Source of the DNA: Planctomycetota bacterium
GTDB lineage: Bacteria > Planctomycetota > Planctomycetia > Pirellulales > Pirellulaceae
Assembly: GCA_014381825.1 (NCBI GenBank)
Contig: JACNKX010000053.1
Location: 1 to 64,000 of the forward strand
Length of the DNA: 64,000 nucleotides
Reading direction: 5' to 3'
Below, one piece after another: positions 6,881-10,670 of this stretch. The notes below the pieces were generated by a model. It was not told where the DNA came from. It did no database searches and saw only the letters and a list, made by a program, of their open reading frames with translations. The translations under genes were made by a program, and so were the position numbers. Each line of letters opens with the position of its first letter. Within the stretch, counting starts at the first letter, position 1.

Positions 6881-7339
6881 ATGCCGCAATCCATCGCAAG
6901 AGTTGCCCTTCACATCGTGTATTCAACGAAGCATCGGAGACCATGGCTCAAGGACAGGCAGCTGTGCGAAGAATTGTACGCATACAAAGCCACGATCCTG
7001 CGCGACAACGTCGACTCTCCCGCGATCATCATCAATGGTGTAGAAGATCACATTCATGCCTTGTGTTTGTTGAGCCGCAAGTTTCCCATTATGAAGGTGG
7101 TCGAGGAAGCAAAAACCGAAACGAGCAAGTGGCTCAAGAAGCAATCTCAAGACACGAGTGATTTTGCATGGCAAGGCGGATACGGAGCGTTTTCGGTAAG
7201 CGAGTCGAATGTTCCGCAAGTCAAGAAGTACATCCAGGACCAACAAGAACACCACCGTCGGATGACGTTTCAAGATGAGTTTCGTGAGTTGTGTAAGCGC
7301 CATGGAGTTGAGTTGGATGAACGATACGCGTGGGAGTAG
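6881..7339 (+). CDS. REP-associated tyrosine transposase (Y1, IS200-like)
   Basis: 152 residues, the usual size for the Y1 HUH family. The metal-binding H-I-H (in D-H-I-H-A-L) lies near residue 58. The catalytic Tyr is probably in V-K-K-Y-I-Q near residue 116. These enzymes cut and join single-stranded DNA at REP hairpins. The gene appears intact. Its TAG stop codon is formed by the first three bases of the right arm (7337-7339), so the coding region ends exactly at the repeat. There is no accessory TnpB. Confidence 0.88.
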   Translation: MPQSIARVALHIVYSTKHRRPWLKDRQLCEELYAYKATILRDNVDSPAIIINGVEDHIHALCLLSRKFPIMKVVEEAKTETSKWLKKQSQDTSDFAWQGGYGAFSVSESNVPQVKKYIQDQQEHHRRMTFQDEFRELCKRHGVELDERYAWE

Positions 7340-7495: not shown

Positions 7496-8992
7496 ATGAT
7501 TCATGATCCCATCAAGGCGCAATCGCCTCGTGCGTCGAACATGCCCGATCAGCCAAACGTGCTGTTGATCACGACCGATCATTGGCCAGCATCTTTGCTT
7601 GGCGTGGCCGGCCATTCAGCGGTTCAAACTCCGACCTTGGATCAACTGGCGCGAAACGGCACTCGGTTCACGAATGCCTACTCCGAATGCCCCGTCTGTA
7701 TTCCTGCTCGCCGCTCGCTGTTAACCGGAACCTCACCAAGAACTCACGGCGATCGCAGTTTTCAAACGGACTTGCGTCTGCCAGAAGTTCCGACGATAGC
7801 GGAGACTTTCCGTGGTGCAGGATACCAAACCTATGCGGTTGGGAAGCTTCATGTCTATCCGCCTCGCGCAAGAGCCGGGTTTGACGATGTGATTCTGTGT
7901 GAGGAGGGGCGTCCGCAGTACGGTCCGACCGACGACTATGAGATCTATCTAGGCGAACAAGGGCTTGTCGGACAGCAGTTCCTGCATGGCATGAGCAACA
8001 ACGATTACGTTTCTCGACCATGGCATTTGGCCGAAGAGCATCACGTCACGAATTGGACGTCGCGGGAGATGTCGCGCACGATTCAACGGCGCGATCCTAC
8101 GCGGCCTGGATTCTGGTACCTGTCGTACACGCATCCACATCCACCAATCGCTCCGCTACAGTGCTATCTCGACATGTACCGAGATATTGATCCGGGTGAA
8201 CCAATCATTGGCAATTGGAGGGCTAAACCTCACGAGATGCCTGCTCGGATGAACAATCGGCTGATTGACAGTGATCGCTATGACGCGCGGTTTATCCAAA
8301 CAGCTCGCCGGGCGTTCTATGCACTATGCACTCACATCGATCATCAGCTGCGAGTTGTTATCGGAACTTTGCGCGAAGAGGGTGTTCTCGATAACACGAT
8401 CATTCTGTTTACAGCGGACCATGGTGATATGCTCGGTGATCACGGCATGTGGGCGAAACGTCTATTCTACGAAGGTTCGGCGGGCATTCCGATGTTGTTG
8501 GTTGGACCTGATGGGGATGAGCGGGTGGGTTTTCAGAGAACCGACGATCGCCTTGTCGGCATTCAAGATATCATGCCGACATTGCTCGACTTGGCAGGCG
8601 TGGAGTGCCCCGACACGATGGACGGCCTGTCGATGGTCGGTGACCAGGGGCGCGACTACTTGTACGGTGAGTATGGCGAGGATGCAGAAGCGACTCGTAT
8701 GATTCATGCGGGACAGTACAAATTGATTTATTACTCGTACGGCAATCGGATGCAATTGTTTGATCTCCGGGCGGACCCTCATGAGCAGACAGATCTAAGC
8801 GAGTCGACTTCCCATACTGATGTCCGCGAGCGACTAACGAAACGGCTCATTTCCGAACTGTACGGAGACGATTTGGCATGGCTGACGGACGGTCGCTTCG
8901 TCGGACTGCCTGAAGATTCTGAAACAGGCTCGCCGGATCGGACTCTTTCGCTGCAACGCGGCCGGCATTGGCCCGTGCCGCCACAGAGTTAG
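7496..8992 (+). CDS. Sulfatase (arylsulfatase/choline-sulfatase type)
   Basis: 498 residues, a single sulfatase domain. It hydrolyses a sulfate ester through a formylglycine made from Cys68 in C-I-P-A-R (68-72), a complete C-x-P-x-R motif. The first metal Asp sits in T-T-D-H (26-29). A second metal site is visible in T-A-D-H-G-D-M-L-G-D-H-G. There is no clear signal peptide, so it may be cytoplasmic or use another export route. The true start may be ATG 7541 (M16, just before P-D-Q-P-N-V-L-L-I-T-T-D), since neither ATG has a good ribosome site. Planctomycetes are known for large sulfatase sets. The substrate cannot be told from sequence alone. The gene ends 10 bp before the next one. Confidence 0.92.
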   Translation: MIHDPIKAQSPRASNMPDQPNVLLITTDHWPASLLGVAGHSAVQTPTLDQLARNGTRFTNAYSECPVCIPARRSLLTGTSPRTHGDRSFQTDLRLPEVPTIAETFRGAGYQTYAVGKLHVYPPRARAGFDDVILCEEGRPQYGPTDDYEIYLGEQGLVGQQFLHGMSNNDYVSRPWHLAEEHHVTNWTSREMSRTIQRRDPTRPGFWYLSYTHPHPPIAPLQCYLDMYRDIDPGEPIIGNWRAKPHEMPARMNNRLIDSDRYDARFIQTARRAFYALCTHIDHQLRVVIGTLREEGVLDNTIILFTADHGDMLGDHGMWAKRLFYEGSAGIPMLLVGPDGDERVGFQRTDDRLVGIQDIMPTLLDLAGVECPDTMDGLSMVGDQGRDYLYGEYGEDAEATRMIHAGQYKLIYYSYGNRMQLFDLRADPHEQTDLSESTSHTDVRERLTKRLISELYGDDLAWLTDGRFVGLPEDSETGSPDRTLSLQRGRHWPVPPQS

Positions 8993-9002
8993 GCACGGTT
9001 CG

Positions 9003-10670
9003 ATGAATGAACTGTCTGCCCCTCGCACGTCGTCGCTGCGAGACCATTGGCAGTTGTTGCCGCTACTCGGCCTCGCGACGTTGTTGCGCCTGTGGCAGAT
9101 CAACGAATCGCTCTGGCTCGACGAATTGCATTCTGCTTGGGTTGTCTCGGCTGGGGTGGGTGACGTTCTCGAGCGTGCTCAGATGGGAAATCAAAGTCCG
9201 TTGTATTTCTACCTTCCTTGGGCAACGACTGCGTTGTTAGGGATGAGCGAGTGGTCTCTGCGTTTGCCTTCGTTAGTGGCTGGCGTCGGGCTTGTCGCGA
9301 TGGCCTATGGATTGGCTTATCAATTCACGCGTTCACGGATCGCAGCCGGTGCGTGCGCCACGCTCGTCGCTCTGGATCATAACTTTCTGTTCTACGCCAC
9401 CGAGACGAGGCCTTATGCTTGCGTTCAGCTAGTCGCGGCATTTCAACTTCTTGTCTTTTGGCGACTGCAGGATGCGACTTCAGTTCGTCGCCGCGCGATC
9501 TTTGTGGCGTCAACTGTCCTTCTCTTCTATTTGCACTACACGGCGATCTTGCTGGTTGCAGGTGAGACTTTGTTTCTACTTACGCGGAGTTTTATTTGTC
9601 GTCAGCAATCATCCAGTACCGAGTACAAGTGCCGCCAGCATGTGATCGATTTGATATGCATTGCGGCGCTGACGATTCCAACGGCTGCGCATCTTCTGGA
9701 CATCGGATCGCGGCGGGATACATGGACAACCTTTATCAACGATACATCGTTATTGCTTCCGATATATTGGTTCTCGTTCGTCAGTTATGTCGCCGTTCCG
9801 GTGTTCGCTGTTTTGGGAACGATAGTAGCCATCACGCGCCGTCGTGATGAGCCCTTGAATCGCAGCGTCCTTAGATTGGGCTCATCACGACGGAGCGTGA
9901 TGGCTACGTTGTTACTGGCTTGTTGGTTGGGCGTACCGTTGGTGATCGTTTGGCTTCTGACCGTGACTCGCATCGCTCCGCTGTATCTGGGACGCTACGT
10001 CATCGGGGCCGCGCTGGCTCCTGTCGGCTTTGCAAGCTTGTGTGTTGGCTTTCAGCAGAGTACGAGGTCACAGCTGACTACGGCCGCTCTAATCATCACT
10101 TACGCCTTTCTCGCGAGCGGCATGATCGAGCAGCTGCGATACGATGGCCGCTTGTTTGGAGATCGTACAGAGAACTGGCGCGACGCGGTGCGTTACGTGA
10201 ACGAGGGCAGCGATTTGGCACGAGACTCGCCGGTCTTCGTTCGTAGCGGTTTGCTGGAAGCCGATCGACTCATAGGGGACGATAGCGAAGCTCTGCGCCG
10301 GTACTGTGTTTCGCCCGTAACATCGATCTACCGAATCGAACGCCTGGACAACGAGATTCGGCCTCTTACGACCCGTGACGCGGGAAAGCTCACTGACGAA
10401 AACCTAAACCAAATCGAGGCATCTGGATCGGCGTGGTTCATCATAAATGGCACGACGGGTACTCGGAAACGCTGCAGCGAGCAAGTCGTGAACTCGTTGG
10501 AGAAGGAGATTGACAGGGCGACTTATACGGCGATCCAGCGCGGACTTGTATTGTACGAGGAACAATTCGGACATGTCGGCGTCTTCTACGTCGAACTCTG
10601 GGAAATCGATGATCAAGTAACGCCTCTCGACGATCAGCCAACGTCGCCCAGTTCCATCGCGCCACCATAG
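9003..10670 (+). CDS. GT-C membrane glycosyltransferase (ArnT/PMT-like) carrying an in-frame palindromic insertion
   Basis: 555 residues with about 10-12 membrane helices in the first 400, then a soluble tail of about 150. The first loop carries L-W-L-D-E-L-H-S, the D-E motif of the dolichyl-phosphate-mannose/ArnT-like GT-C fold, so it probably uses a polyprenyl-phosphate sugar on the periplasmic side. Residues of about 274-302 (V-A-I-T-R-R-R-D-E-P and onward to S-S-R-R-S-V-M-A-T) are encoded by an 83-nt palindrome and form an Arg-rich loop between two helices. It follows the sulfatase by 10 bp and overlaps recG tail-to-tail by 37 bp. Donor and acceptor are unknown. Confidence 0.82.
   Translation: MNELSAPRTSSLRDHWQLLPLLGLATLLRLWQINESLWLDELHSAWVVSAGVGDVLERAQMGNQSPLYFYLPWATTALLGMSEWSLRLPSLVAGVGLVAMAYGLAYQFTRSRIAAGACATLVALDHNFLFYATETRPYACVQLVAAFQLLVFWRLQDATSVRRRAIFVASTVLLFYLHYTAILLVAGETLFLLTRSFICRQQSSSTEYKCRQHVIDLICIAALTIPTAAHLLDIGSRRDTWTTFINDTSLLLPIYWFSFVSYVAVPVFAVLGTIVAITRRRDEPLNRSVLRLGSSRRSVMATLLLACWLGVPLVIVWLLTVTRIAPLYLGRYVIGAALAPVGFASLCVGFQQSTRSQLTTAALIITYAFLASGMIEQLRYDGRLFGDRTENWRDAVRYVNEGSDLARDSPVFVRSGLLEADRLIGDDSEALRRYCVSPVTSIYRIERLDNEIRPLTTRDAGKLTDENLNQIEASGSAWFIINGTTGTRKRCSEQVVNSLEKEIDRATYTAIQRGLVLYEEQFGHVGVFYVELWEIDDQVTPLDDQPTSPSSIAPP
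9825..9907. repeat. 83-nt palindromic element inside a coding region
   Basis: Arm 9825-9854 (starting GTAGCCATCACG) and arm 9878-9907 are reverse complements over 30 bp with a single mismatch. The loop of 23 nt (9855-9877) can itself pair AATC with GATT. The reading frame of the glycosyltransferase stays open through the element. Confidence 0.85.

Follow-up and report, generated by a model that had tools for sequence, protein, structure and literature searches.

REPINs are short non-autonomous elements thought to be spread by RAYT transposases (TnpA-REP, of the HUH/Y1 kind). The available text of PMC3733652 divides REPs into GTAG and CGTC superfamilies, finds GTAG REPs among PVC bacteria, naming R. 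baltica, and describes REPs inside genes that encode 20-30 residues, are likely neutral in loops and count DnaE2 among their hosts; it also equates the intragenic R. conorii elements RPE-4 and RPE-6 with CGTC-headed REPs. In the portion of PMC6006769 consulted, REPs lie in frame inside tnpA-REP genes of subclass 2.4. In-gene REPs, DnaE2 hosts and planctomycete GTAG REPs are therefore already published, as far as the available text of PMC3733652 goes, and the statement in an earlier note on the DNA analyzed here, that in-frame palindromic insertions of this sort were not known in planctomycetes, was mistaken.

The window analyzed here is a 64-kb stretch of DNA (64,000 nucleotides) of a member of the Pirellulaceae (GCA_014381825.1, contig JACNKX010000053.1), whose genome (G000) comprises 9.69 Mb in 238 contigs and was compared with those of two sister species of the same genus (G001 and G002). 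The earlier note had described two 30-nt arms with a single mismatch at 9825-9907, and an inverted-repeat search agreed, returning arms at 9825-9854 and 9878-9907 (30 nt each, 97% complementary, one mismatch, 23 nt apart). Three inverted repeats (≥16 nt, within 150 nt) were listed for the window, and this one ranks first in both length and pairing. The single-stranded DNA of 9825-9907 folds at -39.7 kcal/mol, compared with -12.2 (sd 2.1) in 200 shuffles (z -12.9; 0/200 equal). The palindrome is real and not a product of chance. Its host is a forward-strand gene at 9003-10670 for a 555-aa membrane glycosyltransferase of the PMT_2 / GT-C type (35.9 bits against PMT_2, cut-off 26.1), the frame of which stays open through the element, so that the 83 nt encode residues 275-302 (VAITRRRDEPLNRSVLRLGSSRRSVMAT). 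By simple Kyte-Doolittle hydropathy these residues lie between hydrophobic segments at 259-277 and 303-321; the encoded peptide is Arg-rich (TRRRDEP...SSRRS), with seven K/R and two D/E in loop 278-302, in keeping with the earlier description of an Arg-rich loop between two membrane helices. A solved-structure search for the glycosyltransferase and a PADLOC run each gave no match.

Searching G000 with the 83-nt query returned about 40 further clusters, and copies of the arms are numerous across the genome, inside and outside genes. The right arm is identical to the left unit of locus L021 and the right unit of L020, and the left arm to the right unit of L022. Register alignment of the units gave the consensus GTAGCC[AG]TCAC[GT]CTCCG..GTGA[CT]GAGCCC, a GTAG head followed by an imperfect palindrome with a bulged A. 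In the 9-pair stem, 90.5% of cells are paired, against 85.1% in shuffles (0/500 as high), and 26 stem cells are altered on both sides where 13.6 were expected, a count that exceeds all 500 shuffles and in which inherited changes are counted repeatedly; the number of stem pairs with a double change (3) was reached by 167/500 shuffles and is not unusual. Across 79 G000 sources, consisting of the window and 78 loci chosen for similarity to the REPIN, 177 units were found, and 72 of the 84 neighbouring close pairs are convergent with GTAG outward. The spacers of these 72 pairs measure 51-61 nt in 36 cases, and 13 pairs overlap by 4 nt. Convergent doublets with GTAG outward are the anatomy of REPINs, and the element at 9825-9907 is a REPIN made of two inverted GTAG-headed REP units, not a Rickettsia-type element. 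Both units have the 30-nt form with the GTAG head outward: the left one at 9825-9854 on the forward strand (45.7 bits against a covariance model of the unit), the right one at 9878-9907 on the reverse strand (50.5 bits), with a 23-nt spacer at 9855-9877.

The same observations weigh on two other readings of the palindrome. That it belongs to the Rickettsia palindromic element families, the name used in the earlier note, deserves next to no credence. The behaviour that suggested the name was correctly recognized, as the element is palindromic, in frame in one of many unrelated genes with such copies, repeated within and outside genes, and absent from most homologues; the name itself fails, since the heads are GTAG and not CGTC and a RAYT partner is present in the sister species. 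The phylum also differs, and the available text of PMC3733652 assigns RPE-4 and RPE-6 to the CGTC superfamily, RPEs being set apart here by description rather than by sequence comparison. The second reading holds that the palindrome is no mobile repeat but arose by chance or was made by the host, to serve its gene as terminator, attenuator or RNA switch. The very stable DNA fold fits it, as do RNA-level roles proposed for REPs elsewhere in the part of PMC3733652 available; near-identical units genome-wide, a position deep within a conserved open frame and an Rfam scan of the window in which no family reached gathering score make it highly improbable.

As a REPIN, the element resembles described GTAG REPs and REPINs with RAYT in its head, its imperfect palindrome of ~30 nt, its convergent doublets, its high copy number, the RAYT gene beside the same repeats and a head TAG that is often a stop codon. 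It differs in having its own consensus, and was typed by head and anatomy, not by consensus match to the 24 published GTAG families. Open frames reaching a REP end at the TAG of the head in 16 cases, compared with 3 and 9 in the other frames (84 units), an excess that agrees with the available text of PMC3733652. REP ends were also considered as portable start codons (ATGGCTAC, with GGAG upstream), and this idea was rejected, as outward long frames numbered 17 against 12 and 11 for the two remaining frames (84 units), no convincing excess.

The covariance model was run on 40 genomes (own included), with the best 150 candidates scored per genome. Matches at E ≤ 0.01 number at least 149, 127 and at least 149 within the genus (three genomes; G000 itself at least 149); outside it, there are 111 in G018 (same family, other genus), one to five in four genomes, and none in 32. 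A search of G000 for the Y1 transposase domain gave five matches, one of which is a RAYT-like fragment inside a dense REP cluster. When a full RAYT protein was compared with the 238 contigs of G000, only residues 123-216 were matched, with a TAG stop, and no full-length copy of that type was found; as assembled at present, the REP population of G000 thus seems to lack an intact cognate RAYT, although an assembly gap may hide one. The remnant (L144 / L059, contig C45, 43.6-46.2 kb) sits amid many REPs of mixed orientation, and a neighbouring gene runs through REPs in the part for the predicted N-terminus of its protein. The 3.1-kb locus fetched around another RAYT-like gene of G000, which has an open frame (C220:43544, 51.6 bits), is free of these REPs.

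Both sister species have full-length RAYT genes next to REPs of this family. The one in G002 (L091) has them on both sides, and the RAYT copies of G001 (L092 and L093, the latter beginning at a contig edge) have them on one side each; the intact relatives in G001 and G002 are about 214 aa long. Against NCBIfam REP_Tyr_transpos (NF047646) the candidates score 56.4 and 61.8 bits, under the cut-off of 80, and we therefore call them RAYT-type, a name not certified by the model. The three aligned RAYT-type proteins contain PNH[VI]H, FWQQ and YIADNP, corresponding to the HuH, conserved W-Q and Y...NP motifs of class 2 as given in Table 1 of PMC6006769, in the portion available. The best solved structure was E. 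coli TnpA-REP (4er8), at an E-value of only 0.063. In named genomes, 39 loci, mostly from Planctomycetota with a few other bins, encode RAYT relatives, and a GTAG- or GTGG-headed doublet lies at most 400 nt away in 23 of the 39 loci, compared with 0/195 shuffled loci; many of the 23 doublets have the loop CGCTCCGCG in common.

Matches to the host protein were found in 25 of the 40 genomes (own included), and twelve of its relatives were aligned across the loop. The orthologue of G001 carries a REPIN at the same site and in frame, with a 59-nt spacer in place of 23 nt, making it 36 nt (12 codons) longer, and at the right-hand junction the two species agree down to the codon (SVMAT/SLTAT before the next helix). 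For G002 and ten further genera, together 11 of the 12 aligned homologues, the fetched DNA contains no REP, and loop lengths vary among them. The earlier note had proposed looking for the loop in relatives and would have given up the insertion had all orthologues shared that loop without palindromic DNA and no other copies existed; the many copies and the 11 REP-free homologues point the other way. The gene metH lies directly upstream of the glycosyltransferase in G001 and G002, and recG just downstream in G001, which identifies the glycosyltransferases of these two species as orthologues. Between a shared Pro and the next helix G002 has 28 residues, Arg-rich, while the window protein without its REPIN would have 10; insertion alone is insufficient to account for this, and some native loop must also have been lost. 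Judged by these aligned sequences, the REPIN peptide replaces native loop sequence.

In the window, an IS200-like Y1 transposase gene (6881-7339, forward strand; PF01797, 72 bits; NF033573, 49 bits, under the cut-off of 55) and a sulfatase-like gene (7496-8992) sit between metH and the glycosyltransferase, and neither is present there in the compared loci of G001 and G002. The interval from metH to the glycosyltransferase in G001 contains a different inverted repeat (TGGGATAGGCTTCTAGCCTGTCA...; L062:2330-2400).

We favour, at a probability of roughly 0.9, the explanation that the element is a REPIN gained in the common ancestor of G000 and G001 and kept in a length-variable loop between two helices. 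The shared site, the right-hand junction and synteny suggest that the REPIN entered the gene in that ancestor, where insertion, presumably performed by a RAYT, would have used the only left-arm frame free of stops. We propose that the REPIN was retained because the loop that joins the two membrane helices at this site is variable in length. Its Arg-rich peptide now occupies the place of the native Arg-rich loop seen in G002, the loop being probably cytoplasmic and the enzyme probably still functional, and the G000 spacer is 36 nt shorter than that of G001 with the frame preserved. The competing account, that G000 and G001 each gained a REPIN separately in the same tolerant loop, draws on the arms of G000, which match other G000 copies perfectly and those of G001 at only 26/30 and 24/30, and on G002, which is about as close and has no REPIN. 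It would have to reproduce the right-hand junction to the codon, the same frame and orientation, and the loss of the native loop in G000 and G001 alike, and three other in-gene REPs are also common to species; we consider it unlikely.

When the units of G000 were grouped into 93 elements, with a supported gene defined by a Pfam match or, for L122, by a homologue, most REPs proved to lie outside genes: 82 of the 93 elements were not counted as wholly inside a supported gene, and 11 are wholly in frame inside one, some as REPINs and others as single units or divergent pairs. The hosts are the glycosyltransferase of the window (9003-10670), a DnaE2-type polymerase (L028), a sulfotransferase with four REPs (L029), a Mur-ligase-like protein (L117), the homologue-supported protein of L122, three DUF1549/DUF1553 proteins (L133, L141 and L143) and three Hint-domain proteins (L032, L139 and L140). 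In the last three (PT-HINT), a divergent REP pair stands at a similar position. REPs near a predicted N-terminus (L040, L047:3876, L144:5134) and those in long frames without a Pfam match (L052, L137, L112, L106, L049, L037, L120) were left out of the 11. These insertions resemble the intragenic REPs described for Opitutus terrae, R. conorii and others in the available text of PMC3733652, in that REPs or doublets lie in frame, encode 20-30 residues and include a DnaE2 host, and they resemble the subclass 2.4 tnpA-REP genes of PMC6006769, in the part consulted, in that a REP is inserted with the frame unbroken, although the hosts here are unrelated genes.

Three of the 11 in-gene REPs, DnaE2 included, are common to G000 and G002. 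The DnaE2 insertion is absent from both other-genus homologues aligned across the site (G006 and G021), the comparison being made without G001, where the contig ends before the site. The L141 insertion is absent from G018, G006 and G009 (3/3); G018 lacks it in its L141 orthologue despite its 111 REP matches. The L117 insertion is present in G000 and G002 and decayed in G001, and the G002 match has an internal TAG and is missing residues 805-1127, so the gene may be broken there. Elsewhere, L143 shows a gap at the insertion in four distant homologues (34-39% identity, orthology uncertain), the G002 homologue of L122 has another long insert at the site, and the insertion site of L133 is a length-variable linker. 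Further open frames run through REPs in loci of G001 and G002. In one G001 frame (L249:716-1567) a stretch encoded by a REPIN immediately precedes a hydrophobic segment (GSSRRSVTATFLATVAALLAF...), an arrangement that recalls the glycosyltransferase, and another G001 frame, of 766 codons (L252:3-2300), contains a REPIN in frame.

Compared between species, the glycosyltransferase arms of G000 and G001 are identical at 50 of 60 nucleotides, against 64.5% elsewhere in the gene, and the DnaE2 arms of G000 and G002 at 54 of 59, against 78.8%. Third positions are unchanged at 13/20 in the glycosyltransferase, 17/18 in DnaE2 and 13/18 in L141 (43/56 in total). A silent-site test against windows from the same genes, covering these three genes with L117 left out, gave a joint P of 0.0005 that rests mainly on DnaE2 (0.0001; glycosyltransferase, 0.077; L141, 0.157). 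Silent sites of the in-gene arms change slowly. Between the glycosyltransferase arms of G000 and G001, two pairs were altered at both positions and still pair, and one mismatch is paired in G001; three of the 30 pairs became mismatches in G001 and two became G-T, which argues against perfect hairpin upkeep.

Both in the left unit of DnaE2 and in L117, the stem pair that adjoins the loop reads T-A in G000 and G-C in G002. No form is more frequent in G000 than T-A (98/158 classified units), which was found in 0/53 units of G002 and 0/59 of G001; since the classified G002 and G001 units are those ranked highest by the covariance model, a ranking that favours T-A, sampling bias opposes the claim of genome-typical variants. 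This offers a lead, from two sites only, that in-gene REPs resemble the variant of their own genome. Such variants could be explained by gene conversion, hairpin template switching, structural selection or re-insertion. That the in-gene REPs were rewritten after the species split, both hairpin sides together and in frame, to the dominant variant of their genome is a tentative reading, with the balance tilted somewhat against it; rewriting might proceed via gene conversion from other copies, hairpin template switching or renewed RAYT action.

Relative to the available text of PMC3733652, what is added here is a comparison of species, and with it shared sites, an in-frame length change and a genome-typical in-gene variant. 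A literature search outside subscription papers found no comparison of in-gene REPs across species of planctomycetes, and the one made here may be new.

In these planctomycetes a non-autonomous hairpin repeat has turned into protein sequence and been retained across species, even in an error-prone DNA polymerase. With orthologous in-gene copies in three congeners, such retention becomes testable in terms of loop tolerance, hairpin upkeep and concerted evolution with the REP population; were concerted rewriting true, peptides within unrelated enzymes would change in concert. A REPIN-derived Arg-rich segment that replaces the loop of a membrane protein would be an example of selfish DNA supplying a usable topological signal, if the loop faces the side that we propose.
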